A DNA stretch of 64,000 nucleotides from Bacteroidia bacterium (GTDB lineage: Bacteria > Bacteroidota > Bacteroidia > M30B66), in NCBI GenBank assembly GCA_018401705.1, contig JAGYKL010000001.1:212473-276472 (forward strand), given 5' to 3'. A program made the position numbers and the translations under genes. Under the pieces are notes generated by a model, which saw only the letters and a list, made by a program, of their open reading frames with translations, was not told the DNA's origin and searched no databases. Below are positions 24,480-46,498 of the stretch, in pieces (positions within the stretch are counted from its first letter, which is position 1; each line of letters begins with the position of its first letter).

Positions 24480-27400
24480 ATGAAAATGCTAAGGTTAATT
24501 GTCTCTTTATTAATTTTATTAAATCAATCTCTTACCGCAGAGATTATCATTCAAGAGACTTTTAATTCTAATGCTGGTTTACCCTTAGGTTGGTCCAGTC
24601 CAATTGTTCAAGGAGCAAATGCTTGGACTATTGCCACAAGCCCTGCCTTTTCAAGTCCATCGAGTAATAGATATGCGGTTTTCAACGATTTTAATCTCGG
24701 AGCAGGAGTTACACCAAATCAGACATCTTTACAAACACCTGCATTTGATTGTAGTGGACACACATCCGTTTTCTTGAGTTTTTATCATTACTGGTACGCA
24801 GTGGAGTTCACTCATGGTTACGTTGAGATTTCTAATGATGGCGGAATTAGTTGGGCAATTTTGATGGATAATGAATTGGCAACAATAGGATCTTTAGCTG
24901 CTCCAGCTCAAGAAATTATAGATATTACTCCTTATGCAGCTAATCAAAGCTCTGTTAGAGTTAGGTTCAGATACACTGACGGAGGAGTAACAGGAAGATA
25001 CTGGTACCTTGATGATATTTCAGTTTACAGCAGTCCTGATGTTAGTGTTTCTGAACTGATTGCGCCTGCATATTTAGGCTGCGCCTCACCTTCATATAGC
25101 TCTTCTGAATCTATTACTGTTCAGATTTCAAATCGTTCCCTTATTCCTATAACTAACATTCCAGTGACGTGCATTGTGAGCGGAGCTACCTCACAAACTA
25201 TCACTGCAACATACACCGGAACACCTATTTCAGGATTGGGAACAGTTAATTTCACGCTACCCAGCACTGTGAATATGAGTGCACAAGGTGTTTACCACTT
25301 TCAAATATTTTCGAGTCTTGGTGGAGACGCATACATATATAACGATACACTTTTAACAGGTAGGCGGCAACGCGTGCAATCCTATCCGTACATTGAGAAT
25401 TTCAACTCTAGCCAAGGCGGCTGGCAAGGTTCGCAGCTTATAAACGGACGAGAATTTGTGTATGGAGAACTTCCTTATTTAAATGGTGCTGAAGGAAATG
25501 GGAATAGCTGGTATATCAACACAATTAGCAGTAGCATAAGCACTGAAATTTATCTTGAAAGTCCGGTTTTCGATTTTAGTAACGTCACTAACCCAAGACT
25601 ATCATTTGATATTAAATACCGCTTACATTCTTCAAATTATGTTAGAATACAATATTCAATCAATGGCGGAACAAATTGGATAACATTAGGAACTGCCACA
25701 GACCCAAACTGGTATTCTTATTCAACACAATGGGGCAATAATCTCGCAGCTCCTGTTGACACCTGGACTAACGTAACGAAAAGACTTTGTGATTTATCTG
25801 GTGAGCCTTGTGTTAAGTTTAGAATCCAAGCCAGGCCTTATTATTCATCACCAACGTATGTTGGATACCATCATTTTTCAATAGACAATTTTTTTGTTGG
25901 CGATGACCAACCTGATGATATAGATGTAAGGCAATTCCTTTTACCATCAAATGCAAGTTGCAGTGGACTTTTGTCTGCTTCTCCCGTTAGAATAGTTGTT
26001 GGAAATAACACCTGCCGTCCTATTTATAACATCCCCGTTGCCCTTCAACTTGATGGTGGAGCTGTTATAAATGAAGTTATTCCCGGACCAATAAACCGAT
26101 TTTCTGCAGCTATATATAATTTCTCAGCAACTTTAAATTTAAGTGCTCCCGGAAATCATCTTATTAGCGCTACCGTTTCACTTCCAACCGACTCTTTTCC
26201 AAGCAACAATACTCATCAAATTTCAATTGATGGATCTTCAATTTCCAGCTTTCCATATTTAGCCGATTTCAATAGTGGAAATCAAGGTTGGACAGTAAAA
26301 TCTTCAAGTGCAACAGATGGCACGAGATACTTTGTACATGGCGATTTACCTTATTTAAATGGTGCAGAAGGATATGGCAACAGTTTTTATGTTGAAACTG
26401 TCTCCTCGAATAACAGCACCGAAATTTATGTGGAAAGCCCTGTATTTGATTTAAGTTCTGTGGTTAACCCTCAACTTGTAATGGAAATCAAGTATCAGTT
26501 GCATTCTTCAAATTATAGCAGAGTGCAATACAGCCTAAACGGAGGAAGTACTTGGTCAACTTTAGGCACTAGCACAGATCCAAATTGGTATAATTACTCA
26601 TCGCAATGGGGTAATAATTTAAGTACGCCTGTTGACAGCTGGGATATGGTGCAGCGCAGTCTTTGCTTGCTCTCAGGTCAACCTTGCGTTAAGTTTAGAG
26701 TTATGGCAAGACCATATTACTCTTATCCAACCTATAATGCTTATGAGTATTTTGCCTTTGACAATTTCAGAATCGTAGATGGTGTTGATGTTGGTGCTTA
26801 CGACTTCGTATCCCCTGTAGACCAGGGATGTTTATTTAGCGCAAATCAACCAGTTACTGTTAGAATTTTCAATAGCAGTTGTGGTCCAATGACCAATATT
26901 CCAATAAAATGCGATATCTCAGGTCCATTAAACACTTCACTCACAGGCACAGTACCCGGCCCAATTGCCGTAAACACCTATTACAGCTACACTTTCCCAA
27001 GCACTGTAAACTTAACCGATACTGGAACCTATAATGTGAAGGTTTATACTGAATTACCTTTTGATGCGAATCCTGCTAATGACACTGTTTCTACAACTCT
27101 TTACGTAGAACAAATCACAATTAGCAACTTTCCGTATTTGCAGGATTTTGATAGTGGAACTGAGTATTGGATTGCATCGGGAGCGGCACCTCCAAACAAC
27201 AACGGCAGGAACTTCCTACTTGGGAATCTACCCTATCTGAATGGCCCACAAGGCAATGGAGATAGCTGGTATGTAAATACAAGCACCTCAAGTCAAAGTA
27301 CCGAAATCTGGGTAGAGAGTCCTGTGTTTGACTTTAGCCAACTCACTAACCCTCGAATTGCATTTGATATTAAATATCGTTTGCATTCTTCCGACTACGT

Positions 27401-30400
27401 TAGGATTCAATACTCAATTAATGGCGGAGCTAATTGGCTCACATTAGGAGCTTCAGGTGAGCCCGATTGGTATAACTATTCAACTCAATGGGGAAATAAC
27501 CTAGCCGCTCCTGTAGATTCCTGGACAACTGTTACAAGAAGGCTATGCGATTTGTCTGGTGAACCTTGTGTGAAGTTCAGAATTTTGGCAAGACCTTATT
27601 ATTCTTCCCCAACCTATATTGGTTATGAATATTTCTCATTCGACAATTTCTTCATTGGCGATGGTCAGCCTGATGATATTGATGTAAGGCAATATCTGCT
27701 TCCGGCCTCACCAAATTGCAGTGGGCTTTCGGCAACATCACCTGTGAGGGTAATTGTGGCAAACAATACTTGTAGACCATTAACGAACATTCCTATCACC
27801 TTACAGCTTGATGCCGGCCCAGTTATTAATGAAGTTGTGCCGGGCCCCGTGAATAGATTTTCGGCAATTATATACACATTTACTGCAACTGTAAATTTAA
27901 GTGCCCCCGGTTTACATACCCTTGTTACTGAAGTAAGTATACCAACAGATTCATTTCCGGCTAATAACTCAAAGACCTTGGTAATTGATGGAGCTCCGAT
28001 AAATACCTTCCCTTATTTGGTTGATTTTGACTCCGGCAACCAAGGCTGGTCGCCGGGATCATCAAGCTCAACAGATGGAACCCGATATTTCGTCAATGAC
28101 ACTTTACCATATCTGGATGGTGCTGAAGGGCATGGCAAAAGCTGGTATGTTGAAGCTCTTTCATCAAACAACAGCACTGAAATCTGGGTTGAAAGTCCAG
28201 TCTTTGACTTTACGGGAGTTGTGAATCCTCAGTTGGTGATGGAAATCAAATACCAATTACATTCATCAAATTATGTAAGGGTTCAATATTCTACAAATGG
28301 AGGAACTTCCTGGATTACCCTTGGTACATCAACTGACCCTGATTGGTATAATTACAGTTCTCAATGGGGAAACAATCTTAGCACGCCAGTGGATGAATGG
28401 CAACTTAGAATCAGAAACTTGTGCTTCCTTGCAGGAAACCCATGTGTTAAATTCAGAGTTCTTGCGCGGCCTTATTACTCCTACCCTAACTACCTAGCTT
28501 ATGAATACTTCGGCTTTGATAATTTTGGAATTGTAGATGGCGGTGATGTTGGTGTTTCTTTGTATTTATCGCCTGTTGATCAGGGTTGTTTATTTACCAG
28601 TAATCATCAGGTTAGTGTTAGAGTTTTCAATAATGCCTGCGGTCCGATGACAAATGTGCCGATTCAATGCGATATTACTGGAGCTAACAATGCTACACTA
28701 ACAGGCGTAGTTCCAGGTCCGATTCCTGTTTCAGGATTTGTTGTTTACACTTTCCCTGCTGTTGTAAACCTAACTGCTTTAGGTCATTATGACATATCAA
28801 CATTCACTACACTGCCTTTCGACCCAAGCCCTAGTAACGATACCTTAACTACATCATTAGATGTTGATCAAATTACAATTAACAGTTTTCCTTATGCCGA
28901 AAACTTTAATTCAGGAACGGGTTATTGGATAGCCTCAGGTCAAGCTCCGCCGTTGAACAACGGCAGAAACTTTATTCTTGGAACTCCTCCCTATTTAAAT
29001 GGCTCTGGCTCTAACGGGGATGCATGGTATATCGAAACTACTACGTCAAATGTTAGCACTGAAATCTGGGTTGAAAGTCCCGTTTTTGACTTTTCTACAC
29101 TTGTTTCACCACAAATTAGTGTTGACCTGAAATATCAACTTCATTCATCTAATTACACGCGTGTTCAATATTCGATTAATGGAGGAACATCTTGGGTTAA
29201 TTTAGGCTCTTCGGCTGAACCAAACTGGACCAATTATTCTTCACAATGGGGAAATAACCTAAGCACTCCTGTTGACCAATGGACATCTTACCAGCACCAT
29301 GCTTGTATGCTGGCAGGTTTGCCTTGTGTTAAATTTAGAATCCTAGCAAGACCTTACTATTCAACACCTACCTACGCTAATTATGCAAACTTTGCTTTTG
29401 ATAATTTCACGATTAGCGAAGGCAACGACATTAAAATGGTGAGTTATATTTCTCCGTTCGACGGAGGATGTTTATTTACAACAAACCATCCTGTTACTGT
29501 TAGACTTTACAATTCCGGTTGCGGATCAGCCTCCAATATTCCTGTTATTGCTGATATTTCAGGAACACTCAATACTACATTAACAGGAGTAGTTCCAGGC
29601 CCATTAGCAAACAATGCTTTTGTTAATTATACATTCCCAACTACTGTTGATTTAACCCCAATCGGGCCTTACGATTTTACCACTCGTTCTAATTTAGGCG
29701 GCGATCTTTTTGCAATTAACGACACGATTAAAACTTCCATTGATGTAGATCAAATTACAATTTCATCTTTTCCATATGTTGAAGATTTTGAAAGTGGCAG
29801 TAACTTTTGGATTGCTACAGGTCAAGCTCCGCCGTTGAACAACGGCAGGAATTTCGTGCTAGGACAAGTTCCTTATCTCAATGGTTCTGAAGGCTATGGA
29901 GATGTGTGGTATATTGAAACAACTTCTTCCAGTTCAAGCACCGAAATCTATCTTGAAAGTCCGGTATTTGACTTAAGTGCGGTTACTAACCCCAAATTAA
30001 GTCTTGATGTAAAATATCAACTTCATAGTTCAAATTATGCTCGGGTTCAGTATAGTATAAACGGAGGGAACACATGGCTTACCTTAGGAAGTTCAACTGA
30101 TCCAAATTGGTATAATTATTCATCTCAGTGGGGAAATAATCTTGGAGCTCCTGTTGATTCATGGCAAAGAATGAGCATAGGTTTATGCGGATTGATAGGT
30201 CAATCATGTGTTAAATTCAGAGTGCTTGCTAGGCCATATTATTCAACACCAACTTATTCTGGATATGAATATTTTGCCTTCGACAATTTCATGTTAACCG
30301 ATACTCCGGTTGATGCAAAATGCGATTTTGTTTCTGGCTGCTATGGAAGCGAATATTCTCTTGAATTAGATGTTTTCAATGAATTATTGGCTTGTGCTGC

Positions 30401-31622
30401 AGCTCCTGTTATTCAAGATTTACAAGTCCATTACATAGTCAATGGAGGTTCTGTAGTTACTATTCCATTCTCTGGCTTAAATATTAGTCAAGGCAATTCT
30501 CAAAGATTGAGTATTCCCAATGTAAATATTCCCGACAATCTGTCGGATGTAGAAGTTTGGGTTACCTTACCTAACTCAGAAGTAGACCAGGAATTCAGAA
30601 ACGACTCTATCAAAGGAAATCCTGCAATTTGGCCAAACTGCAACGACCATTGCAGCAATGCAACTACAATATATTCTGGAATAACTGAGCTTACCCAAAC
30701 AAGCTTTGCCACTTCAGATGCCGCCGACGACCCTCCTTTTGGAAGTTGTCAGCCAATTACGATCGAAAATACCGTTTGGTATAAGTTCGACACCAATGTT
30801 AATGGCGATAGTGTTACAATTAGAATAGACAATCAGATTTGCAGCCCGTCGCAAACCGGAGTTCAGATTTCATTGCTGAAAGCAACTGTTGCCTGTGACC
30901 CATCAACCTACAGTGAAGTATTCTGCTCGGCTAATAATGATACAACAGCCTTTGAATACGGACCAGAACCTTTAGACGCAGCAAGCACCTATTACTTGGC
31001 TGTTGACGGCTTCGCCGGAGGCTTTTGCGATTTCAGATTATCCCTGTTCGGAGCTGAAATTGACCCATTACCAGTTGAGTTAATTTCCTTTGAGGCAATA
31101 TGCCTCGAAGATAAAAACAAAGTCGAGCTAACCTGGGCGACGCTTTCAGAAACGAACAATCATCATTTTACCTTAGAGAAATCTTTTGACGCAGCTAAAT
31201 TTTCGCCTGTAGCAGTGGTGCTAGGTTCTGGTAATAGCAACAAACTTAACGAATACGAGCACATTACAGATACCGATGCCGGCAGAACAGTATATTTCAG
31301 GCTCAAACAAACCGATTTCAATGGGCATGTTGAGTATTCGCAAATAATTGCGAGCAACTGCGGTTCTGATTTTGACGTACTGATGTATCCCAATCCGGCT
31401 ATTTCATTCATAAACCTTGAACTTAAAGGCGATCGAAACGAAGAAGTATCCATTCAAATTACCGATTCAAGAGGAAGAACACTTCTTACAAAAACTGCAA
31501 CTATTGAAAATAAAGAGTTAAAAACATTTATTGATGTTGAGGCTCTTAGCAATGGAGTTTACCCTGTAATTATTCACAAAGGCAGCACAATTATTACGAA
31601 ACGACTGATTATCAATAGATAA
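24480..31622 (+). CDS. Giant T9SS surface protein with six jelly-roll/Ig-like tandem units
   Basis: 2380 residues. Signal peptide (about 1-20), then a MAM/choice-of-anchor type jelly-roll (about 22-185) starting ETFNSNAGLPLGW and holding GRYWYLDDISVYS, then a CARDB-like Ig domain. Six ~292-residue units follow (about 300-1940). Each is a jelly-roll marked by PYLNG-EG-G, TEI-(Y/W)-ESPVFD and QWGNNL--PVD--W, followed by a CARDB-like domain. After them come another Ig-like domain, a PPC-like domain (about 2055-2195, CNDHCSNATTIYSG), the PLPVELISFEA linker domain and a type A sorting domain (LMYPNPAISFINL ... IITKRLIINR). Cysteine pairs recur in each unit. It is likely a long cell-surface or released adhesin-like protein; the ligand is unknown. 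Confidence 0.88.
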   Translation: MKMLRLIVSLLILLNQSLTAEIIIQETFNSNAGLPLGWSSPIVQGANAWTIATSPAFSSPSSNRYAVFNDFNLGAGVTPNQTSLQTPAFDCSGHTSVFLSFYHYWYAVEFTHGYVEISNDGGISWAILMDNELATIGSLAAPAQEIIDITPYAANQSSVRVRFRYTDGGVTGRYWYLDDISVYSSPDVSVSELIAPAYLGCASPSYSSSESITVQISNRSLIPITNIPVTCIVSGATSQTITATYTGTPISGLGTVNFTLPSTVNMSAQGVYHFQIFSSLGGDAYIYNDTLLTGRRQRVQSYPYIENFNSSQGGWQGSQLINGREFVYGELPYLNGAEGNGNSWYINTISSSISTEIYLESPVFDFSNVTNPRLSFDIKYRLHSSNYVRIQYSINGGTNWITLGTATDPNWYSYSTQWGNNLAAPVDTWTNVTKRLCDLSGEPCVKFRIQARPYYSSPTYVGYHHFSIDNFFVGDDQPDDIDVRQFLLPSNASCSGLLSASPVRIVVGNNTCRPIYNIPVALQLDGGAVINEVIPGPINRFSAAIYNFSATLNLSAPGNHLISATVSLPTDSFPSNNTHQISIDGSSISSFPYLADFNSGNQGWTVKSSSATDGTRYFVHGDLPYLNGAEGYGNSFYVETVSSNNSTEIYVESPVFDLSSVVNPQLVMEIKYQLHSSNYSRVQYSLNGGSTWSTLGTSTDPNWYNYSSQWGNNLSTPVDSWDMVQRSLCLLSGQPCVKFRVMARPYYSYPTYNAYEYFAFDNFRIVDGVDVGAYDFVSPVDQGCLFSANQPVTVRIFNSSCGPMTNIPIKCDISGPLNTSLTGTVPGPIAVNTYYSYTFPSTVNLTDTGTYNVKVYTELPFDANPANDTVSTTLYVEQITISNFPYLQDFDSGTEYWIASGAAPPNNNGRNFLLGNLPYLNGPQGNGDSWYVNTSTSSQSTEIWVESPVFDFSQLTNPRIAFDIKYRLHSSDYVRIQYSINGGANWLTLGASGEPDWYNYSTQWGNNLAAPVDSWTTVTRRLCDLSGEPCVKFRILARPYYSSPTYIGYEYFSFDNFFIGDGQPDDIDVRQYLLPASPNCSGLSATSPVRVIVANNTCRPLTNIPITLQLDAGPVINEVVPGPVNRFSAIIYTFTATVNLSAPGLHTLVTEVSIPTDSFPANNSKTLVIDGAPINTFPYLVDFDSGNQGWSPGSSSSTDGTRYFVNDTLPYLDGAEGHGKSWYVEALSSNNSTEIWVESPVFDFTGVVNPQLVMEIKYQLHSSNYVRVQYSTNGGTSWITLGTSTDPDWYNYSSQWGNNLSTPVDEWQLRIRNLCFLAGNPCVKFRVLARPYYSYPNYLAYEYFGFDNFGIVDGGDVGVSLYLSPVDQGCLFTSNHQVSVRVFNNACGPMTNVPIQCDITGANNATLTGVVPGPIPVSGFVVYTFPAVVNLTALGHYDISTFTTLPFDPSPSNDTLTTSLDVDQITINSFPYAENFNSGTGYWIASGQAPPLNNGRNFILGTPPYLNGSGSNGDAWYIETTTSNVSTEIWVESPVFDFSTLVSPQISVDLKYQLHSSNYTRVQYSINGGTSWVNLGSSAEPNWTNYSSQWGNNLSTPVDQWTSYQHHACMLAGLPCVKFRILARPYYSTPTYANYANFAFDNFTISEGNDIKMVSYISPFDGGCLFTTNHPVTVRLYNSGCGSASNIPVIADISGTLNTTLTGVVPGPLANNAFVNYTFPTTVDLTPIGPYDFTTRSNLGGDLFAINDTIKTSIDVDQITISSFPYVEDFESGSNFWIATGQAPPLNNGRNFVLGQVPYLNGSEGYGDVWYIETTSSSSSTEIYLESPVFDLSAVTNPKLSLDVKYQLHSSNYARVQYSINGGNTWLTLGSSTDPNWYNYSSQWGNNLGAPVDSWQRMSIGLCGLIGQSCVKFRVLARPYYSTPTYSGYEYFAFDNFMLTDTPVDAKCDFVSGCYGSEYSLELDVFNELLACAAAPVIQDLQVHYIVNGGSVVTIPFSGLNISQGNSQRLSIPNVNIPDNLSDVEVWVTLPNSEVDQEFRNDSIKGNPAIWPNCNDHCSNATTIYSGITELTQTSFATSDAADDPPFGSCQPITIENTVWYKFDTNVNGDSVTIRIDNQICSPSQTGVQISLLKATVACDPSTYSEVFCSANNDTTAFEYGPEPLDAASTYYLAVDGFAGGFCDFRLSLFGAEIDPLPVELISFEAICLEDKNKVELTWATLSETNNHHFTLEKSFDAAKFSPVAVVLGSGNSNKLNEYEHITDTDAGRTVYFRLKQTDFNGHVEYSQIIASNCGSDFDVLMYPNPAISFINLELKGDRNEEVSIQITDSRGRTLLTKTATIENKELKTFIDVEALSNGVYPVIIHKGSTIITKRLIINR
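25381..30305 (+). repeat. Six tandem ~876-bp coding units in the giant T9SS protein
   Basis: Units begin at about 25381, 26247, 27125, 28005, 28882 and 29765. Unit boundaries are the (S/Y)-x-F/Y-P-Y-x-x-x-F motif. Units 1 and 3 share the VRQ(F/Y)LLP linker; units 2 and 4 share SSS-TDGTRYFV and DQGCLF; units 3, 5 and 6 share YWIA-G-APP-NNGRNF. The pattern is an A-B dimer that was duplicated and extended. Confidence 0.85.
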
Positions 31623-31714: not shown

Positions 31715-33832
31715 ATGAAAAACCTAAGCCTAATTATTTGTTCCTTATTCATAAGTGCTTTAGCTTCTGCGCAATTAGCGCCGGGAGACATTGCATTTTT
31801 AGGCATGCAAACCGACAATCCAGATGCTTTTGCTTTTGTCACGTTAACAGATGTTCCTGGTAATACCGCTGTTAGTTTCACGGATAATGGTTGGAGCGGT
31901 ACAGCTCTTTTCACGAATGAAAACACAGTAACTTGGACAGCTCCTGCAGGAGGTGTTGCTTTAGGCACTGTTATCATAATACGCGATGATTCTTCAGGAA
32001 TAACCAATGGAATTTTAGAAGGCCCTGGAACAATTACTGGTGCGCTTTCTCAACTTTCTGTATCAGGCGATCAGATTTTAGCTTATGTTGGTGATGCATC
32101 ATCGCCATCATTTATTGCAGCATTGAGTAATAATTTATTTCTAGAGACATGCAATACAACAGGCACAGGAAACACCAATAATACATGCTTACCTTCACCT
32201 TTGGTGGAAGGAATTAATGCTATTTCAGTTCCTGGTGATGCCACCGAAGCTGATAATATCTTTGTTGACTTTAATAACTTTAGTGGAAGCATCGATGATA
32301 TCAGAGCTATCATCATGGATCCTGAAAACTGGACATATGACGATGAACCTGAAAATGCAGGATACGTAATTTGGCCTGATTGGCAATTCAACTTTGTTCT
32401 GCCAAATGCCTCTGAGATAAGTTTCCAGGACGGTTTCTTAAGCCTCACCGAAGGCTCCTCAGCATCTACAATAAACTTTAATATCAGCCCAGCGAGTTTT
32501 GGCTCACAAACCTTTACAGTTTCTCTAAGTGGTGCTGCAAGCACTGAAGATTTAAGTTCAATTCCAGCATTTGAAGGCACAGATATCGCTGTAAATGTTC
32601 CTACAGGTTCTAGTGTAGCATCAATAAGCCTAAGTGCAATCGCAGATGCACTTCCAGAAGGTGTTGAAACAGGTACTTTAACTATTACAGCAACAAGCTC
32701 AGGCTTAGTTGCCGGAGCAGGAAACACGCTGAACTTTGAAATCAACGAAGCTGAAGGCGTTTCTTTTGTAAGCTTCTCTCAGGCTGCATATAATGCTAAT
32801 GAAGGTGATGGTACTGTTGCCGTAACTATAAATGTAAGTCCAGCCCCAGAGCAAACTGAAAACTTCATCATTTTAATTTCGGAAAATGGCCTATCAAGTG
32901 CAGATTATACAATAACTCCACCAGCAAGCTCTGGCATTATAAACGCCTCAATCTCTGCTGGTGAAAATAGCTTTACGTTTATCGTGAATCTTATTGACGA
33001 TACCGAAGAAGAAGGTGTAGAATCTTTGCTTTTTACTATAGATGAGTTAAGTCCTGGTTTAGGAATCGGAATTAATTCTTCTGCATCACTTAACATTAGC
33101 GATAATGATGGAGTTGCTGTAACCTCTGGCTTATTTATCAATGAAGTAATGGCCTCAAACACAAACACTATTCAAGATGAAAATGGTGAATTTGACGACT
33201 GGATTGAAATCTACAATGGCTTGTTTGTAGCTCAAGATTTAGCTGGCTTATACATTACCGACGAAGAAGCCAATACCACCAAATATTTATTCCCTTCGGG
33301 TGAATCAGCTACTGTTGTTCCATCGGGAGGTTTTGTTCTTGTTTGGGCAGATAACACTCCGGCACAAGGTGCGATGCATACAAACTTCACACTTTCAGCT
33401 TCTGGTGAATACGTTGGACTATATGCATCAAATGGAGATCTAATTCACTCCGTTACTTTCACCGCCTTAGGTCCTAATGAAAGCTACGGTCGAGAAAACG
33501 AGTCGTCTGACAACTTCATCACTTTTAACTCAGGATTCACTACACCAAATGCATCTAATGCAACTTCTTCTATTGAAGAAACTGTTGATTTAATTGGCAA
33601 TGTTTATCCAGTTCCTGCAGATAATCAAACTACGATTATGCTATCTTCTGGCAAGCAAAATAAAACTTTGCATTTGTTTGATATAAATGGGAAGTTAGTT
33701 GCAAATGAAGTTATTCCTGCTGGTTTAACTACACACATTTTGAATACCAAGATTTTACCTGAAGGAATTTACTTATTAAGAATTGGCGAAGGCCGTGAAA
33801 AAAGCTACAGAAAAATTTCGGTAGCTCATTAA
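31715..33832 (+). CDS. T9SS protein with Calx-beta repeats and lamin tail domain
   Basis: 705 residues. Signal peptide ends SAQ (about 19). An N-terminal beta domain (about 20-225) starts LAPGDIAFLGMQTDNPDAF and contains SFTDNGWSG. Two Calx-beta-like regions follow (about 235-345 and 350-465; FIVNLIDDTEEEGVESLLFTI, then LNISDNDG). A lamin tail domain (about 468-600) has LFINEVMASN and DDWIEIYNG. A type A sorting domain ends it (VYPVPADNQ ... YRKISVAH). Lamin tail domains in Bacteroidota often sit on secreted nucleases or surface proteins, but no catalytic domain is visible here. It is a paralogue of the next gene, with which it shares the N-terminal domain and LTD. Confidence 0.87.
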   Translation: MKNLSLIICSLFISALASAQLAPGDIAFLGMQTDNPDAFAFVTLTDVPGNTAVSFTDNGWSGTALFTNENTVTWTAPAGGVALGTVIIIRDDSSGITNGILEGPGTITGALSQLSVSGDQILAYVGDASSPSFIAALSNNLFLETCNTTGTGNTNNTCLPSPLVEGINAISVPGDATEADNIFVDFNNFSGSIDDIRAIIMDPENWTYDDEPENAGYVIWPDWQFNFVLPNASEISFQDGFLSLTEGSSASTINFNISPASFGSQTFTVSLSGAASTEDLSSIPAFEGTDIAVNVPTGSSVASISLSAIADALPEGVETGTLTITATSSGLVAGAGNTLNFEINEAEGVSFVSFSQAAYNANEGDGTVAVTINVSPAPEQTENFIILISENGLSSADYTITPPASSGIINASISAGENSFTFIVNLIDDTEEEGVESLLFTIDELSPGLGIGINSSASLNISDNDGVAVTSGLFINEVMASNTNTIQDENGEFDDWIEIYNGLFVAQDLAGLYITDEEANTTKYLFPSGESATVVPSGGFVLVWADNTPAQGAMHTNFTLSASGEYVGLYASNGDLIHSVTFTALGPNESYGRENESSDNFITFNSGFTTPNASNATSSIEETVDLIGNVYPVPADNQTTIMLSSGKQNKTLHLFDINGKLVANEVIPAGLTTHILNTKILPEGIYLLRIGEGREKSYRKISVAH

Positions 33833-33901: not shown

Positions 33902-36076
33902 ATGACAAACAAATTCTGCATGCGGAGACTTCAACCTATTTTCATTGTCCTTTTTTCGCTTTTTACATCTACTTCACTGATGTCGCAAAGCCTACCAGCA
34001 GGAGCTATTGGATTTATCGGCTTTCAAAGTGATGTGTCAATGGCCATTGCATTCGTAAATACAGTTGAAATTGAGCCAAATACTATTATAAGTTTCACCG
34101 ACAATAAATGGACAGGCTCTGCTCTTTTGCAAAATGAGCAAACTGTAATTTGGACTAGTCCAGACAGCATTTTACCTCCAGGTAATATTGTTATTCTTCA
34201 AGACAATGGAAGTTCAATGAATATCATTGGTCCGGGATCATCAACCGGAAGGCTGTATTATTCATTAGGACAAGGAGAACAAATTCTAGCATACACCGGC
34301 ACAGCGGAGGATCCATCATTTATAGCTGGAATTAGCAGCGGAACATGGCGCCCTCAATGCGATAATATACCTTATCTTGAATTTGCTACCTGTTTGCCTC
34401 CACCATTGGTAAATGGTGAAACCGCTTTTGCATTTGTTAATACTACTACAATCAATATTGATAATGGATTTTTGAACATCTCTCCACTGCAGGTTTTTGG
34501 CCCTGAAGCACTTAGTATAATTTATAACATTAATTACTGGACATTAGATAATGGCCAGTTTGCTGGAACATCAAACTGGCCTGATTGGGATGGTGGCAGC
34601 ACTCAACCCTTTGCCTCAGAAATTAACTTCGAAGTGAGTGGTTCTCAAATAATTGAAGGTGGATCATTGGCAACTATTGTTTTGAATATTGCTCAAGCTC
34701 AACCAACCCCGCAAACTGTTGAAATTGAAGTGTTAGAATTCCCTGGAATTACACCTCAAGATTATTCAACCAATCCAGCTGCTCAGAATAATGTTATTCA
34801 GTTAACTGTTCCGGCAAATGCTACAACTGTGTCTTTTACAGCTCAGGCACTTGCAGATGGTTTATCTGAATTAAATGAAAATGTAACATTCTTAATTGGC
34901 AACCTTTCAGGTGGATTAACACCTGGCAGTGACGATTCTTATAGCTTAACTATTCTAAGTAATGAACAAGAATTTCCGGAAGTTAATTTCACAAGCGATA
35001 CACTTTATGTAACTGAGGGAATGGCAGGAACTCAAATTGATATTGAGATAGATCCAACAAGTCAAACCGTATATAATATTGTCGTTAATGCAATTAGCGG
35101 TGCGGGCGTAATGAACGACTTCTTCACTAATCCAAGTCAGTTTTCAGGACAATTGCTACTTCAAACAACTCCAGGAAGTTCGCTGATTAGTTTCACGGTT
35201 ACAGCTTTTGATGATGTAGTAATCGAAGCTGATGAATATTTGAATTTCACCATTGTTCAGGTAAGTAATGGAATTCAAATAGGGTCAATGAGTAATATTG
35301 TTGTGGTTTTAAAAGACAACGATAACACACCGGTTTTTACTCCTCCGGCATTGTATATCAATGAAATAAATGCATTTAACTTGGATTTTCCAGATGCAAA
35401 CGGGCAATTAGACGATTGGATAGAATTGTACAATGCTTCAGATGAAGATGTAGACATCTCTAACTATTCAATAACCAATAACATTCAGGATCCTTTGAGA
35501 TTCGTTTTTCCTTCAGTTTCGTCGCAGATGACTATTCCTGCCGGAGGATACAAACTCATTTGGGCCGACCAAAATACGGTGCAGGGTCCATTGCATATTA
35601 ACTTCACTTTAAATGCTGGTGGAGGCTTTTTAGGTCTTTTTGGCTCGGATGGAGAAACCTTTGTTGACGGACTAGAATATCCTGCGCTTGATTCATTAAC
35701 CAATTACGGTCGCTTTCCTGACGGAGAAAACTGGCAAAATATTTACTTCCCAACACCAGAAGCTACAAATTCTGACAGCATTCCTGAAGATGAAACTGGT
35801 TTTCTTGATAGTTCAGATTTGCTGAGTGAATTCTCTGTTTATCCTAATCCCTCAAGTTCTTCAGTTTCTATAGTTAGAATTGGAAACTTGATTACTTCAA
35901 AAGTGAGCTTCGAATTTTATGATGTAACAGGCAGAAGAATTCCTGTTGCTTCAATGGAAATGGAAGCGGGTAAATTCTGGAGATTTGATATTCAGCAAAT
36001 TCCTCAAGGGCTCTATTTCATTAAGATTTCTGCTAAAAACGAATCTGGATTTATCAAATTACTGAAACTTGATTAG
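33902..36076 (+). CDS. T9SS protein with Calx-beta-like repeats and lamin tail domain, paralogue of the preceding gene
   Basis: 724 residues; an ATG 18 bases later is an equally good start. Signal peptide ends LMSQ. The N-terminal domain (LPAGAIGFIGFQSD, then SFTDNKWTG) matches that of the preceding protein. Two Calx-beta-like regions follow (about 240-350 and 360-480), then a lamin tail domain (about 481-610; LYINEINAFN, DDWIELYNAS) and a type A sorting domain (VYPNPSSSSVSIV ... FIKLLKLD). The same domain order in neighbouring genes indicates tandem gene duplication followed by divergence. Ligand unknown. Confidence 0.87.
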   Translation: MTNKFCMRRLQPIFIVLFSLFTSTSLMSQSLPAGAIGFIGFQSDVSMAIAFVNTVEIEPNTIISFTDNKWTGSALLQNEQTVIWTSPDSILPPGNIVILQDNGSSMNIIGPGSSTGRLYYSLGQGEQILAYTGTAEDPSFIAGISSGTWRPQCDNIPYLEFATCLPPPLVNGETAFAFVNTTTINIDNGFLNISPLQVFGPEALSIIYNINYWTLDNGQFAGTSNWPDWDGGSTQPFASEINFEVSGSQIIEGGSLATIVLNIAQAQPTPQTVEIEVLEFPGITPQDYSTNPAAQNNVIQLTVPANATTVSFTAQALADGLSELNENVTFLIGNLSGGLTPGSDDSYSLTILSNEQEFPEVNFTSDTLYVTEGMAGTQIDIEIDPTSQTVYNIVVNAISGAGVMNDFFTNPSQFSGQLLLQTTPGSSLISFTVTAFDDVVIEADEYLNFTIVQVSNGIQIGSMSNIVVVLKDNDNTPVFTPPALYINEINAFNLDFPDANGQLDDWIELYNASDEDVDISNYSITNNIQDPLRFVFPSVSSQMTIPAGGYKLIWADQNTVQGPLHINFTLNAGGGFLGLFGSDGETFVDGLEYPALDSLTNYGRFPDGENWQNIYFPTPEATNSDSIPEDETGFLDSSDLLSEFSVYPNPSSSSVSIVRIGNLITSKVSFEFYDVTGRRIPVASMEMEAGKFWRFDIQQIPQGLYFIKISAKNESGFIKLLKLD

Positions 36077-39676: not shown

Positions 39677-42600
39677 ATGAAAAACAGATTACAAAATTCA
39701 AAAAACATCTTACAGCTATGGGCAATAGCTTTTGTGATGTTTATTGTCGCATCAACAGCAGTAAATGCGCAGATTCTTACTTTCGAGTTTTCGGGAGTTG
39801 CTGGAAGTCCGCAACCAGCCAGTGTAGTTTCCAACCTAAGTAACCCCGGTTTGACTCAATCAGCCATTACCCGAGGTGCAGGCTTAAGTCTTACTGGCAA
39901 TAATGGTAGATTTAATGCAACCAGCTGGGCTGTTACAAACATTGCAAATGCTGTTTCTGGCAATGATTACATGGAATTTACCATTACTCCACAGGCGAAT
40001 TTCGAGTTTACTGTAAGTTCTATTTATATTCAAATCCAGCGTTCTGCAACAGGACCCAGAGAATTTGTATTGAGAAGTTCTGTAGATGGTTACACAAGTA
40101 ATCTGGATGGGTCATTTATCATAACTGATAATACATCAACACAAAACAGAACATTTACATTTGCTCAAGCAGCATCTTCAAGTCCTGTAACTTATAGGAT
40201 TTATGGCTGGGCTGAGTCAGCCGCTGGCTCTGGAGGTATAGGTGATGGTGCCGGTGATGACATTAGAGTAAATGGAACTGTTAATCCTACAGGCCCGAGT
40301 ACGACGGCTCCTGTAGTTAGCACAAGTGCTCCTGCTACTTCAATAACTACAACCCAGGCAAGTGCCGGTGGAGATGTTACTGATGACGGTGGAGATCCTG
40401 TTACATCTCGCGGTGTAGTTTGGGGAGCAACTGCAAATCCTACTGTTCCTTCTGCAAACTCTACAAGCAATGGCACAGGCACAGGAGCGTTTGTTTCTAC
40501 TATTACTCCTTTAATTGCAAATACAACATATAACTATAGAGCATATGCAATAAATGGTGTTGGAACTTCTTACGGCAACAATTCAAGCTTTACAACTTTG
40601 CCATTACCTCCAACAGCCGGGGCTGCTAATACAATTACCTCCAGCTCATTTAATGCTACCTGGAGTGCCCCATCTATGGGAGCTGCTGCTTACACTTACA
40701 CAATTGAAGTTTCTGAAACTAATACTTTTGCAATAACATATTCTACTCAATCGGGCATTTCTTCAGCTTCAACATCTATAGCTGTAAACTCATTGAATTC
40801 GTCAACTGATTATTACTATCGTGTTAGAACTGTAAACTCACAGGGAGTTAGTGCTTGGTCTAATATTATTGGTCCGGTTACAACACCTGCACCTGTAGGA
40901 CCTGTTGTTGTGACTGCAGCTGTTTCAGGGGTTACTTCAAATGCAAGTACACTTAATGGAACCATAGATGCAAATGGAACAACTGCAAATGCATTCTTCG
41001 ATTACGGTTTAACAGTAGCCTACGGTACTTCTGTAGCTGCAAGCCCCTCTTCAGTAACAGGATTTGGCAATACCAACATCAGTTTTAATGCTGCTGGATT
41101 AACTCCAAACACTCTTTATAACTATAGAGCTAGAGCAAATGCAGGTGTATTTGGTGCTAACCAAACATTTGTTACCCTTGCAGCAATACCTGGAGCAATA
41201 GCATTTGGAACTCCTACTTCAACTACTGTAACCATCAATTCTATAGCTCCAAATGGCAACCCTGCTTCTACAGAGTTTGCAGTAGAATCTACAACTATCC
41301 CTGGTCAATACGTTCAATTTAATGGAACTTTAGGAGCAATTCCTTTTTTCCAAACAGCTGCTAGCTGGATTGGAACAATTGTAACGGGACTCTCTTCTGC
41401 AACAACTTATTCATTTCAAGCAATTGCGCAAAATTCAGAAAGTGCTGCAACTGCAGGAGGACCAATTGGTTCATCTACGACATCTGCTTGCGCTGCACCT
41501 ATAGTTGTACTAAGTAACATTTCAAATAATGGTGTAACTATAACGCTTTCCAATCCAACAGGTGATTTTGAATATGTAGTTAATACTTCAGCGGCTGCAC
41601 CAGGTTCAGGAACTGCCGCTACAGGTAATTCAGTAAATGAAAGTGGTTTAACTGCCTCAACTGCTTATTTTGCACATGTTCGTTCAGTATGTGGAAGCAA
41701 TTTCTCTTCATGGACTACAACTTCATTTTCAACTCTTGCTAATCCGGTTGGTCTGGTAACATATCTATTTGATGGATGTACTTCTTGCCCTTCTTCTGCT
41801 GCAACAACTTCTGATGCAGGAGTAGCTACAACTGATTTTATTCGTGGCCCGGGTATAGCTGCTGGAGCAGGTTCAAATTACTATAACAACAATGGGTTCA
41901 ACACTGCTTCACCTAACTTTACTTCTGCAAATTCGCAAGGAGATTACGTTTCATTTACGGTTACTGCAAATCCTGGATTTCAGGTAACTTACTCTTCATT
42001 AGACTTTACACATCGTAAAAGTGGCACAGGACCGGGAAATACTCGTGTTGGCTACTCCACAGATGGAGGATCTAGCTGGACTTATATGACACCAGATCCA
42101 TTATTTCTTTCAGGAACTGGAGATGTAAATGTAAGTTGGACATTCCCGGCAGCATTTAGCACTTCTAATACTGTTACATTTAGAATTTGGGCTTGGGGAG
42201 CTACCAATGCTGGAGGCACTTACCGTAACGACAATGTTGTTCTAAGTGGTTATGTTAGCACTCTTTGTAACAACCCTGTTACTCAATCTACTGATGTTAT
42301 TTTCAGTAATGAAACAAATACAAGCACAGATATTTCTTGGACAACATCCGGCACTTCTGATTTGCGTAAAGTATTTATTTCAAACACGTCAGTTGGTTCA
42401 CCTACATTGGCAAATGGAATAGATTATGTTGCTAACAGTAACTTCGGTTCAGGAGATAACATAGGTTCTTGGTTTTGCATCTACAGCGGAATTGGAAACA
42501 CAGTATCTGTAAGCAATTTATTACCAGGCCAAACTTATCGTGTGTTTGTTGCTAACGCTAATTGCTCTGGTATAGATATACATTACTTAAATTCAACTGC

Positions 42601-45600
42601 AGTTGGTAACCCTGCGAATGTTGTTACAACAAATATTCCTACTCCGGTTTTATCTTCTGGTCCTCTAAGCAGTTTTGGATCATCTTGTGTTAATTTTGAT
42701 ATTGAATCTCAAGTCAACATTTCTGGGTCGGTGTTGGATGGATCTCCTGTTACCGTTACTGCTCCTGCAGGGTTCGCGCTAACATTAGAATCCGGCGAGA
42801 ACTACACTCCTAGTGTAGTTATCCCATATACTGGTGGAGCATTTACTACTCCAGTATATGTGCGTTTTCTTCCAACTTCTGCTATCGCTTATTCAACCAA
42901 CTTAACTGTTACAGGCGGTGGAGCTACTTCTATTACAATTCCGGTTTCAGGAACTGGGGTTACAATTCCTCCAACCGTTTCTACTGGTTCAGCATCATTT
43001 ATTGGAACAACAGGTGCAACACTTGCTGGAAGCTTAACTCTTGGTTGTGCTAGTGTCTTTACAGAATACGGAATAGAGTATTCTGTAAGTCCAGCCTTTA
43101 CACCGGGTAACGGTGCTATTGTTCAATCAGCTTTTACAGGAAACAATTTCTCTGTTCCTGTAACAAACCTAGGTATCAATACAGTTTATTACTACAGAGC
43201 TTATGGTATTAATAATGCTGTAACCTATTATGGCGTGGTTGGTAGTTTCTCAACTTTAAGCGGTGCTGTCGAAACGATCTACAATTATGGTGATAATACA
43301 TTTGGTACACCTTTCTATGTGCATCCAACAGTGCTTGGAAGCAATGTTGCTAAATCAGCAACAGGCTGGACAAACACGACACCTTGCGGAAGTGGATTCT
43401 CAGGATTTGGAATTACATCGGCAAATCCAACATTTAACACATCAACAAATCCTTATGTTGAAGCTATAATTACTCCTAACGTAGTTGGTAATCAAGTTGA
43501 AATTGAGCGAATTTCAGTTCAATTGCGTAGTTCAAACACAGGCGCTAATCAAGTGATGTTGGCTTATTCGATTGATGAAGGAGCAACTTGGGTAGATCGA
43601 GGCGCGGCAGAAACTCCGTCAATAGGGACTTCTTGCGGGGTTACTACTTCAAACACATGGTTATTACCTGCTCCTGTTACTGTTGGATCTCCATTAGCTG
43701 CTAATTCATTCAGAATTCGCTTATATTACTATAATACAGCCAATCAAACAGGAGGAAACAATCAAATTCTTAACTTAGTAGTTCTTGGTCGTATTCTTCA
43801 ATCTCCAAACACTTACTATTCTGTTTCAGGTGGTAATTTCACTGATGCAATTTGGTCGCCGTCATCTTCTGGTACTGTAGGTGCTCAAGTTGACTTCACG
43901 CCTGAAATCAATGTTGTTATTCAATCGGGTGACAACGTAATTCTTAATGCATCTGATGTATTAGTTAAGAATTTAACAATTCAGCCTTCTGCAAATTTAA
44001 AAGCAGCTTCAAGTGATTTCGCAAACATGAGAAATGTAAGCATTTATGGAAACTTGAATGTTGGTGGTTCAATCGGTAACGGTACTGCGTTTGATGCCAT
44101 TGGTTTAAATATTGAAGGACCGAGCACAACTATCTCTGGAGCTGGAATAATCAACGTTGGTCGTATTAGAAAACAATCAAATTTCAACTTAACGTCAAAC
44201 TTGACGATTCTGTCGAATATGTACGTGCGTTTCCCTGGTGCTGCTCTTTATAACAATGCTTCTAATAGTTTCTTCAATGTTACTCTTGCAGCAAATAAAT
44301 CATTATATGTTACAGGTTCAGGTGGAACAGACGGAATTGTAACTATCGATGGAACTACAGATAATGACATTGACCAAAAAGCTGGTTCGTTAACTATCAA
44401 TGGTAATTTGAACATTACTGGAAGCTTATCAGTATCATCTTCAAATAACATCAATCCATACTTGAGTAGCTTAACAATTGGTTCTACTGGTTTGGTAACT
44501 GTGAAAAACATCGATATTAAAAATAACGCGGTAAACTCAACAACTATCGCTCCTGGTGGTCGACTTAATGTTTCAGGAATCATGAGACAACGTCAAGGAA
44601 ACTTCGTTACAAATGGAGGTATTTCTCTAGGTGTTGGAGCAATTCTTTTACATGGTGCAGGCACTCCGGGATTATCTCCTGATCCAGGTGGATCAATTAC
44701 TGGAAACATTCGTGTGCGTGTTCAAGGAACTACATTGGCTGGTGTATATAACTATTGGTCAAGTCCGGTGCTGAATAATTCTATGGCCGCTATCATGCAA
44801 AATGGTATCCCTACAGGAAGTACATTTAATACCTATAAATATGATGCTACAGGAGCAAGCAGCAATACAGTTGAAGGTCTTAGAGAAGGTTGGCTTCCTC
44901 AATCGCAAGGAGATTTAATGCTTCCAGGGGTTGGTTACATTACTACAAGTGCAGGTTCATTCCAGTTTACTGGAAATCCTAACAACGGAGTAATTCAGGT
45001 ACCTGCTATTCATGGAGCATTTACTGACTTTAACTTAGTTGGCAATCCTTACCCAGGACCAATTGATGCAACAGCTTTCTTAACAGCTAACCAGGCAAGT
45101 AACATTATACCTGCAGTTTATTTCTGGGATGATGATGCAACACTTGGTATAGATTACACTTCTAACGACTACATCGTTACAAATGCAGTCGGAACTGTTG
45201 GAACTGGCGGTAACGGTGGAGCTGCCTCTTACACTGGGCGTATCGCAACCGGTCAGTCTTTCTTCGTAGAAACTCGCGTTGCTGCTGCAACTGTTAACTT
45301 TGATAACAGTATGCGTACAACAGGTAATGCTACTTTCTTTGAAACTCCATCAACATTTGAAAAACTTTGGTTACGTGTTAACGGAGATAATAACTTAAGC
45401 AATGAAGCACTTATAGCTTTCGGAGATCAAGCAACTGATGGATATGATGACTTATTTGATGCAAAGAAAATTGCAGCAAACACTGACATATCTCTTTATA
45501 CTACAGCTGGAGAAATGAATTTCTCAATCCAAGCGATGAGCGCCTTAACAGATAGTAAAATTGTTCCTGTTGGATTTGATGCTACTCAGTCTGGAATTTA

Positions 45601-46498
45601 CACATTCTCTATTGCTAACATTGAAGGTATTAATCCAACAGTGCTTATCTATTTAGAAGATCGTGAACTTGGTACATTCCATAATCTTCGCGCAGGAAAT
45701 TACAATGCTGATATTACTGGAGCTATTTCAGGAGAGGGTCGTTTCTTCCTTCACTTTAGCAAGCCGGTGCAGGTTTCAGCTGCTGCTGAGTCGTGCTCTT
45801 CAAATGACGGAAGTATCACTTTCGAAAATGCAAACAATTGGAATTATTCAGTTGTAAATAGCGCAAATCAGGTAGTTGCTCAAGGAGCTGGTTCAGTTGA
45901 ATCTTCAATTGATAATCTGGTAGCTGACTCATATGTAATTACATTAAGCACAAACGATGGTTACAACACAATCATCACAACTCTTGTTGAAGCTTCTTCA
46001 CCTGTATCACTTAGTATTCAAGGAGATGAAAACACGTCAGTTAATATGGAAGCTACTTTTGCAGCTGTTCAAACTGGTGCAACTTCAATTACTTGGGATT
46101 TTGGTGATGGAAGTGCTGCTGCCGCAGGAAGTGTTGTTAATCACGTGTTTATGACGCCAGGTATCTACACTGTAACTGCCTTTGCTTCAAACGAATCTTG
46201 CTCTAGTCAATCTAGCTTTGAAGTTCGCGTTGAGGCAGATGTTACTGGAATTAATCATATCGGAAACAGTAATTTCAAGTTATTCCCTAACCCAGCAAAC
46301 AACTCCGTTACTGTTGTTAGTTCAGGTAATGCTGATATACAAATCTCTGATATCACTGGTAAAACTCTAAGAACAATTGCTGCTTCAAATTCTGTAATTG
46401 CAAACATTGAAACTGCTGATTTATCTAATGGTATTTACTTAGTAACAATTACTGAGAACGGACTTCGCTCTACTCAGAGATTAGTTATTTCGCACTAA
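39677..46498 (+). CDS. Giant T9SS protein with FnIII-like, jelly-roll, filament-like and PKD domains
   Basis: 2273 residues. Signal peptide ends at VNAQ (about 32). An N-terminal beta domain (about 33-205; ILTFEFSGVAGSPQP) recurs in diverged form about 690-865 (VTYLFDGCTSC) and again about 1195-1375 (IYNYGDNTFGTPF). FnIII-like and Ig-like domains lie between (about 210-690, 870-1190) with S-T-YYYRVRTVNSQG strands. Residues about 1375-1600 hold short LNVGG/LTING strands like a beta-helix; the following region to about 2020 includes the SFNTYKYDATG block. A PKD domain (about 2110-2190; ITWDFGDGS) and a type A sorting domain (KLFPNPANNSVTV ... STQRLVISH) end it. It is probably a major exported surface or matrix protein. 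Confidence 0.87.
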   Translation: MKNRLQNSKNILQLWAIAFVMFIVASTAVNAQILTFEFSGVAGSPQPASVVSNLSNPGLTQSAITRGAGLSLTGNNGRFNATSWAVTNIANAVSGNDYMEFTITPQANFEFTVSSIYIQIQRSATGPREFVLRSSVDGYTSNLDGSFIITDNTSTQNRTFTFAQAASSSPVTYRIYGWAESAAGSGGIGDGAGDDIRVNGTVNPTGPSTTAPVVSTSAPATSITTTQASAGGDVTDDGGDPVTSRGVVWGATANPTVPSANSTSNGTGTGAFVSTITPLIANTTYNYRAYAINGVGTSYGNNSSFTTLPLPPTAGAANTITSSSFNATWSAPSMGAAAYTYTIEVSETNTFAITYSTQSGISSASTSIAVNSLNSSTDYYYRVRTVNSQGVSAWSNIIGPVTTPAPVGPVVVTAAVSGVTSNASTLNGTIDANGTTANAFFDYGLTVAYGTSVAASPSSVTGFGNTNISFNAAGLTPNTLYNYRARANAGVFGANQTFVTLAAIPGAIAFGTPTSTTVTINSIAPNGNPASTEFAVESTTIPGQYVQFNGTLGAIPFFQTAASWIGTIVTGLSSATTYSFQAIAQNSESAATAGGPIGSSTTSACAAPIVVLSNISNNGVTITLSNPTGDFEYVVNTSAAAPGSGTAATGNSVNESGLTASTAYFAHVRSVCGSNFSSWTTTSFSTLANPVGLVTYLFDGCTSCPSSAATTSDAGVATTDFIRGPGIAAGAGSNYYNNNGFNTASPNFTSANSQGDYVSFTVTANPGFQVTYSSLDFTHRKSGTGPGNTRVGYSTDGGSSWTYMTPDPLFLSGTGDVNVSWTFPAAFSTSNTVTFRIWAWGATNAGGTYRNDNVVLSGYVSTLCNNPVTQSTDVIFSNETNTSTDISWTTSGTSDLRKVFISNTSVGSPTLANGIDYVANSNFGSGDNIGSWFCIYSGIGNTVSVSNLLPGQTYRVFVANANCSGIDIHYLNSTAVGNPANVVTTNIPTPVLSSGPLSSFGSSCVNFDIESQVNISGSVLDGSPVTVTAPAGFALTLESGENYTPSVVIPYTGGAFTTPVYVRFLPTSAIAYSTNLTVTGGGATSITIPVSGTGVTIPPTVSTGSASFIGTTGATLAGSLTLGCASVFTEYGIEYSVSPAFTPGNGAIVQSAFTGNNFSVPVTNLGINTVYYYRAYGINNAVTYYGVVGSFSTLSGAVETIYNYGDNTFGTPFYVHPTVLGSNVAKSATGWTNTTPCGSGFSGFGITSANPTFNTSTNPYVEAIITPNVVGNQVEIERISVQLRSSNTGANQVMLAYSIDEGATWVDRGAAETPSIGTSCGVTTSNTWLLPAPVTVGSPLAANSFRIRLYYYNTANQTGGNNQILNLVVLGRILQSPNTYYSVSGGNFTDAIWSPSSSGTVGAQVDFTPEINVVIQSGDNVILNASDVLVKNLTIQPSANLKAASSDFANMRNVSIYGNLNVGGSIGNGTAFDAIGLNIEGPSTTISGAGIINVGRIRKQSNFNLTSNLTILSNMYVRFPGAALYNNASNSFFNVTLAANKSLYVTGSGGTDGIVTIDGTTDNDIDQKAGSLTINGNLNITGSLSVSSSNNINPYLSSLTIGSTGLVTVKNIDIKNNAVNSTTIAPGGRLNVSGIMRQRQGNFVTNGGISLGVGAILLHGAGTPGLSPDPGGSITGNIRVRVQGTTLAGVYNYWSSPVLNNSMAAIMQNGIPTGSTFNTYKYDATGASSNTVEGLREGWLPQSQGDLMLPGVGYITTSAGSFQFTGNPNNGVIQVPAIHGAFTDFNLVGNPYPGPIDATAFLTANQASNIIPAVYFWDDDATLGIDYTSNDYIVTNAVGTVGTGGNGGAASYTGRIATGQSFFVETRVAAATVNFDNSMRTTGNATFFETPSTFEKLWLRVNGDNNLSNEALIAFGDQATDGYDDLFDAKKIAANTDISLYTTAGEMNFSIQAMSALTDSKIVPVGFDATQSGIYTFSIANIEGINPTVLIYLEDRELGTFHNLRAGNYNADITGAISGEGRFFLHFSKPVQVSAAAESCSSNDGSITFENANNWNYSVVNSANQVVAQGAGSVESSIDNLVADSYVITLSTNDGYNTIITTLVEASSPVSLSIQGDENTSVNMEATFAAVQTGATSITWDFGDGSAAAAGSVVNHVFMTPGIYTVTAFASNESCSSQSSFEVRVEADVTGINHIGNSNFKLFPNPANNSVTVVSSGNADIQISDITGKTLRTIAASNSVIANIETADLSNGIYLVTITENGLRSTQRLVISH

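Follow-up and report, generated by a model that had tools for sequence, protein, structure and literature searches.

A two-unit super-repeat of jelly-roll and Ig-like domains in a predicted type IX secretion cargo protein of a Bacteroidia bacterium

The stretch of DNA analysed here, hereafter the window, is a segment of 64,000 nucleotides (nt) from a Bacteroidia bacterium (assembly GCA_018401705.1, contig JAGYKL010000001.1, positions 212,473 to 276,472). It carries a gene for a protein of 2380 amino acids (aa), a predicted cargo of the type IX secretion system (T9SS), in which jelly-roll domains and Ig-like linker domains form a tandem array. We propose to read this array as a super-repeat of domains within a secreted, adhesin-like rod, with linkers that are specific to their position and have a role in geometry; for the statement as a whole we estimate a probability of roughly 0.6. 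The architecture of the array and its evolutionary pattern are observed, and we hold that part with good confidence. A role of the jelly-rolls as like modules of a multivalent adhesin is suggested by the nearest folds and seems to us evenly balanced, while a geometric role of each linker class with the N-terminal segment that follows it is a tentative proposal.

The repeat is real: six units of ~290 aa are 48–70% identical in aa sequence, far above chance. Direct repeats start at 25463, 26339, 27221, 28097, 28979 and 29861, with spacings of 876, 882, 876, 882 and 882 nt. Cut at an FPY anchor, the units span aa 302–590, 591–883, 884–1176, 1177–1469, 1470–1763 and 1764–~1943. An earlier note on this DNA had described six ~876-bp units at 25381–30305. 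The repeat stands, at 25383–30308, but both of its ends need correction: the five complete units are 289–294 aa each, the sixth is a jelly-roll without a matching Ig and is followed by a different Ig-like domain, and a unit 0 (aa ~24–301), 20–25% identical to the other units, precedes unit 1 and had been overlooked. The layout is as follows.

24480–31622, + strand: coding sequence of the array protein, a predicted T9SS cargo of 2380 aa (open reading frame; PF18962 and TIGR04183 at the C-terminus)
24480–24539, + strand: probable signal peptide, ~20 aa (read from the sequence)
24549–25382, + strand: unit 0, a divergent jelly-roll (choice_anch_J, aa 24–182) and an Ig-like domain, Ig0, neither A nor B
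25383–26249, + strand: unit 1, type A; jelly-roll 25383–25913, Ig A 25914–26249
26250–27128, + strand: unit 2, type B; jelly-roll 26250–26783, Ig B 26784–27128; DGTRYF start, after Ig A
27129–28007, + strand: unit 3, type A; jelly-roll 27129–27671, Ig A 27672–28007; APP-NNGRNF start, after Ig B
28008–28886, + strand: unit 4, type B; jelly-roll 28008–28541, Ig B 28542–28886; DGTRYF start, after Ig A
28887–29768, + strand: unit 5, B-like (B′); jelly-roll 28887–29423, Ig B′ 29424–29768; APP-NNGRNF start, after Ig B
29769–30308, + strand: unit 6, jelly-roll only; APP-NNGRNF start, after Ig B′
31383–31613, + strand: T9SS type A C-terminal sorting domain, aa 2302–2378 (PF18962, 49.4 bits against a cut-off of 27)

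Within the window, unit 1 resembles unit 3 (68.5% aa identity) and unit 2 resembles unit 4 (70.0%), as had been noticed earlier, and A units compared with B units reach 49–52%; unit 5 is 56–57% identical to the B units and 48–52% to the A units. The pairing is due mainly to the Ig half, which is 64 and 57% identical between units two apart (lag-2) and only 28, 31 and 36% identical between neighbours (lag-1). Units 1 and 3 are sisters, as are units 2 and 4, in both the Ig and the jelly-roll trees.

The same order is found elsewhere. Seven arrays are complete enough to be typed: that of the window, L037, L038, and those of genomes G746 (L078), G359 (L079), G032 (L080) and G284 (L081; unit 0 cut by a contig end). 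L037 (a Chitinophagales metagenome-assembled genome, MAG; 2,387 aa, best segment 43%) and L038 (a Bacteroidales MAG; 3,366 aa, 40%) came from a scan of a genome collection, in which the remaining three of five loci were weak. The Ig order is A-B-A-B-B′ in the window, L037 and L038, B-A-B-A-B′ in G746 and G284, and B-A-B′ in G359 and G032, and every one of the seven arrays closes with a lone jelly-roll. A and B thus alternate in 7/7, with one A-B dimer in G359 and G032 and two in the other five, and among the first four units Ig identity is higher at lag-2 than at lag-1 in 7/7 (45–91% against 21–38%). The difference of one dimer occurs within a single family, between G746 (2,379 aa) and G359 (1,822 aa). 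The suggestion that a two-unit block was duplicated is borne out by the lag-2 identities, by the sister pairs and by relatives that differ by one dimer.

The linker classes are separated clearly. In a tree of the 31 Ig domains of the seven arrays, A and B split with 100/99 support. A topology that keeps the Igs of one array together is rejected for G746 (p 1.6e-49) and for L037 (p 9.8e-5); for the window the rejection is weak (p 0.031). When ten Ig0 domains are added, A (99/91) and B (98/93) persist with Ig0 between them; in this tree Ig0 is a class of its own, neither A nor B. The nearest Ig outside a domain's own array is of the same type in 31/31 cases.

It could be argued that the alternation is a mere trace of neutral, repeated dimer duplication, in which linker classes and their order have no function. 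The first and third units, like the second and fourth, are sisters inside each two-dimer array, so in every lineage the second dimer either arose or was homogenised on its own, which is what unequal exchange would produce. Neutral turnover, however, should not hold the Ig classes, or their coupling to the jelly-roll segment that comes after them, as sharply as is seen: the classes are kept across arrays whose jelly-roll bodies are ~45% identical, while adjacent bodies of the same protein are alike. We therefore consider this explanation unlikely. Alternation kept in relatives whose other domains have drifted apart points to a role in spacing or geometry, as far as sequence comparison can indicate one.

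The coupling concerns the first ~35 residues of each jelly-roll, its N-terminal segment. The seven first units were excluded from the test because the Ig preceding them, Ig0, forms its own class, which leaves 31 units. The nearest N-terminal segment shares the type of the preceding Ig in 30/31 units (29/31 when only segments outside the unit's own array are considered), against 18/31 (17/31 outside the own array) for the type of the unit's own Ig, and none of 5000 within-array shuffles was as high as observed. Among fragments outside the test, the junctions of L082 and L086 fit by eye, with a PP...N.RNF start after a B-type Ig; that of L083 is cut before the motif, and the G154 fragments lack the motifs. 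In the window, units 3, 5 and 6 share the APP-NNGRNF start because each follows a B-type Ig, and units 2 and 4 share DGTRYF because each follows an A-type Ig. The shared start of units 3, 5 and 6 had been reported correctly in the earlier note; the recombination among units invoked there to explain it is unnecessary, since the segment tracks the preceding Ig and the units had been cut out of register. Informative sites place unit 3 mostly with unit 5 as far as about column 92 and, from column 94, almost exclusively with unit 1; such a mixed unit 3 results in a single step if two modules are duplicated with breakpoints inside the jelly-roll. On the sequence, then, later recombination among units appears possible but not needed.

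The remainder of the jelly-roll, the body, behaves quite differently from the linkers. The nearest body lies in the same array for 38/38 units, although bodies of different arrays are only ~45% identical; in the body tree 7/7 arrays are monophyletic (the window with 98/97), and the grouping of all A-type bodies in one clade is rejected (p 1.4e-10). Body-only exchange, shared selection, or both may lie behind this likeness. If selection acted by itself, bodies would have become alike in each protein through parallel selection for one lineage-specific ligand, without exchange of DNA. Comparisons between units give near-chance identity at 4-fold sites in the window, in L037 and in L038, and the first-unit bodies of G746 and G742, two species of the same genus, match at 15/51 sites, also at chance level; similarity in DNA is therefore not required to account for the window. 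In the window the bodies agree at 0.36 of 4-fold sites for units of the same type (58/162) and at 0.38 for different types (144/378), against a codon-family chance of 0.34; the corresponding values for the Ig halves are 0.41 (50/123) and 0.30 (31/105).

Two arrays speak against selection by itself. A- and B-type bodies agree at 196/406 = 0.48 of 4-fold sites in G746 (chance 0.36) and at 109/205 = 0.53 in G359 (chance 0.40), while their Ig halves do not exceed chance (0.32 against 0.35, and 0.38 against 0.37). In addition, units 1 and 3 of G032 share a single identical tract of 495 nt (N ignored) with diverged flanks. It spans alignment columns 41–256 and stays within the body and the beginning of the Ig, column 41 being the end of the N-terminal segment as set beforehand. 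This looks like a conversion tract, but it contains many N, so an assembly cause is possible. We regard parallel selection without exchange as a reasonable but somewhat less probable account. A separate observation concerns units 3 and 5 of L078, whose jelly-rolls are 92% identical in protein and match at 25/55 4-fold sites, which implies very strong protein conservation against saturated DNA.

The array of the window is old. Its units are at most 68% identical in DNA and their longest exact match is 31 nt, which together with the near-chance 4-fold sites makes the risk of collapse small; the same 4-fold sites speak against a recent change of copy number in the window. The earlier note had warned that such arrays change copy number and may collapse in assembly, and this holds for the relatives, which vary in unit number and in which contigs end inside the array in 4/4 fragmentary cases (G735, G741, G742 and G747); for the window it is improbable. 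That the higher-order pattern is itself an assembly product, as these broken contigs and the N within the near-identical tract of L080 might suggest, is very improbable: in the window the array is one open frame of 2380 aa, its diverged units rule out an artefact there, and the same order occurs in six other assemblies.

How widely is the array distributed? In a class sample, 47/395 genomes matched the unit profile at E ≤ 1e-20, and the best E was ≤ 1e-45 in five (G000, G359, G032, G284 and G154). At E ≤ 1e-45 the profile matched 6/46 genomes in G359's family, 1/2 in G032's order, 2/22 in G284's order and 1/395 in a phylum sample, the last being the window's own. Wider searches for intact arrays, in G359's order (6/46 genomes) and G284's order (2/22), gave none that was new and intact. 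In the window's own order only the window's genome matched among ten (search run at E ≤ 1e-10). That vertical descent has kept the array throughout that order is rejected, for the sole other genome of the genus and eight other family members lack it (three of the nine other genomes of the order are < 85% complete). Absence from the near kin of the window implies patchy loss or transfer; a recent transfer is not apparent in the base composition (G+C 0.39–0.40 in the array, 0.36–0.42 in the window).

Alternation was not found in distant MAM-Ig arrays. Thirteen loci and L039 were scanned; L098, L099 and L039 were dropped for having fewer than three full units, and among the 11 kept, L088, L090 and L097 have non-adjacent full units, which leaves eight contiguous arrays. 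In seven of these the mean Ig identity is lower at lag-2 than at lag-1, and in L096 it is two points above. MAM-Ig arrays without alternation, three to five units long, are common in the class sample. Also, 38 members of G359's family lack the present array yet have many other MAM-like candidates (e.g., G203 and G114).

The identity of the domains was approached through profiles and predicted structures. The T9SS sorting domain at the C-terminus is matched by PF18962 (49.4 bits, cut-off 27) and, as T9SS type A in NCBIfam, by TIGR04183 (33.8, cut-off 23); NCBIfam also identifies choice_anch_J in unit 0. Seven stretches of the protein match Reelin_subrepeat-B (PF21471; 88.4 bits, cut-off 27), and it also matches InhA-like MAM (PF20773; 62.9 bits, cut-off 26.9). 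Neither EGF nor cleaved adhesin is among the seven Pfam families found at E ≤ 1, so that the resemblance to the latter is in fold only. CARDB (PF07705) has no Pfam match in the window protein, whereas the relative P0003 matches it (24.9, cut-off 22.7), and in VIA-align the model of the A-type linker fits the CARDB structure 3idu (Z 11.7, 3.2 Å over 107 residues). The jelly-rolls bear an Asp-box-like motif, S-x-N/D-G-G-x-x-W, read from the alignment. A search of PDB sequences with the unit profile gave no match at E ≤ 0.01.

AlphaFold models of units 2–3 and 3–4 have pLDDT values of 88.6 and 88.3. Their best Foldseek matches are reelin repeats (5b4x, E 2e-14). In VIA-align the best-matched single domains are the MAM domains of meprins (Z 15.7, 2.7 Å over 152) and the adhesin domains of Kgp (Z 12.9–13.5, 2.7–3.1 Å over 148–152; 3m1h Z 13.5, 2.7 Å over 148), and reelin is matched with Z 14.0. 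Carbohydrate-binding modules are also among the matches (8jiy, Z 13.6, 3.3 Å over 166; 4xup), and it is conceivable, though with less than an even chance, that the jelly-rolls are not adhesin modules and instead bind carbohydrate or act as structural spacers of a stalk or matrix protein. Against this stand the MAM and Kgp domains as best single-domain matches, and fold alone shows no function. When two jelly-rolls are fitted to reelin as a whole, the B-linker model gives 6.8 Å over 307 and the A-linker model 15.3–15.8 Å over 295–304; in models whose domain placement is uncertain, this hints at different geometry of the two linkers.

Taking these observations together, the following scheme may be proposed. 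The module consists of a MAM/reelin-like jelly-roll and an Ig/CARDB-like linker, in a protein predicted to be exported by the T9SS and attached to the surface. Old, distinct linker classes, Ig0, A and B/B′, follow one another in a set alternation, the N-terminal segment of each jelly-roll (its first ~35 residues) travels with the preceding linker, and the array changes in length by whole A-B dimers. Bodies have become alike in each protein by unit exchange, by selection, or by both, while linkers have retained their class. The jelly-rolls may then act as like, multivalent binding modules on a rod, and each linker class may form, with the next N-terminal segment, an inter-domain interface that sets turn or spacing. 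With an interface set by linker class, geometry would recur every second unit.

Several points weigh against this scheme. The near arrays were picked by their similarity to the window units and are a non-random set, so the statement on alternation holds for one subfamily, and the Ig types were called by eye before the tree was built, although the tree agrees. The N-terminal rule has exceptions, namely unit 3 of L037, which follows B and groups with segments that follow A, unit 6 of L038, and all of L081, in which the motifs are not shared; moreover, the N-terminal tree is built on few columns and its forks are weak. L037 bodies form a clade at only 69/85. The 4-fold sites of the window carry no synonymous trace of exchange, so exchange there is old or selection acted alone, and a trace is found only in G746 and G359. 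Finally, the pTM of the two models is only 0.64 and 0.71, and the relative placement of their domains is accordingly uncertain.

The nearest conceptual parallel is with the A-band of titin, in which linker types are periodic by position and influence domain rotation and spacing (PMC10665226). Titin, like the window array, has two levels of repeat, with domains and linkers conserved by their position in the super-repeat and with duplication at the level of the tandem; the titin-like hallmark, that units in the same position are more alike than neighbours, is seen in 7/7 arrays. Titin differs in being eukaryotic, with Ig and FnIII domains and super-repeats of seven and eleven domains, whereas the window array belongs to a bacterial protein, a predicted T9SS cargo, and has a super-repeat of two units in which, unlike titin, the jelly-roll bodies are alike within a protein while the linkers hold their class. 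A full counterpart of the titin super-repeat, with a linker position code (0, A, B, B′) kept across deep Bacteroidia lineages, linkers that lock into the initial strands of the jelly-roll after them, and bodies exchanged or co-selected freely, is an idea that we put forward with reserve.

Other known systems share single features. Reelin (PF21471; 5b4x, 2e26) also has tandem jelly-rolls with an Asp-box-like motif, and according to PMC2716378 the Asp-box of its subrepeat A contacts the preceding repeat; its order is subrepeat A-EGF-subrepeat B, whereas jelly-rolls of the window alternate with Ig/CARDB-like domains, with no EGF module in the scans. HagA and the gingipains of P. gingivalis are likewise surface proteins of Bacteroidota that are associated with the T9SS and in which jelly-roll adhesin domains are repeated; of these domains, Kgp K1–K3 match the window model as given above. 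According to PMC5266723, the HagA units are long and near-identical and such adhesin repeats confound short-read assembly, and the title of a work cited there indicates that HagA repeat number differs between strains; the units of the window are diverged and have no cleaved-adhesin Pfam match. Variable repeats of adhesin domains in T9SS proteins are thus already known. Receptor phosphatases mu and kappa (2c9a, 8a1f) also have a MAM followed by an Ig, and 8a1f is matched with Z 13.9 by both models, but theirs is not a repeat, and the whole-chain root-mean-square deviation of 15.7–19.4 Å means that the domains match and the arrangement does not. In nebulin and other, mainly eukaryotic, domain repeats, blocks of several domains are duplicated at a time, and the abstract of PMC1553488 states no class-keeping linker pattern such as that of the window array. 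In mostly narrow literature searches, no report of an alternating MAM-Ig array was found, nor any paper pairing type IX secretion with the MAM domain.

Some further features may be recorded. By eye, the C-termini of L080 and L081 appear to carry a gliding/CHU_C-type T9SS signal, while those of the window, L037 and L038 are of type A; from these sequences, the array seems to have been combined with more than one kind of sorting signal. Downstream in the window, 31715–33832 and 33902–36076 are adjacent T9SS cargo genes that look like tandem paralogues; both encode a lamin-tail domain (LTD) together with a T9SS sorting domain. A very large T9SS cargo gene (2,273 aa, FnIII and PKD domains) lies near the array gene at 39677–46498, and short tandem repeats of 18 and ~21 nt occur at 6969–7093 within a minus-strand open reading frame (6937–7473).

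Descriptions of large Bacteroidota repeat proteins usually present them as runs of similar domains. In the present case, one gene family separates the parts that are kept, the linker class and the segment after it, from the part that changes, the jelly-roll body. It also carries a caution, that "mixed" units in repeat proteins can reflect the register of the cut and not recombination. If the proposal is true, it supplies a testable cutting rule, by which the inherited block does not run from domain start to domain start and would instead comprise a body, its Ig and the N-terminal ~35 residues of the jelly-roll that follows. Under the more reserved titin-like reading, the binding faces of the rod would change jointly within a lineage and its two-unit geometry would persist.

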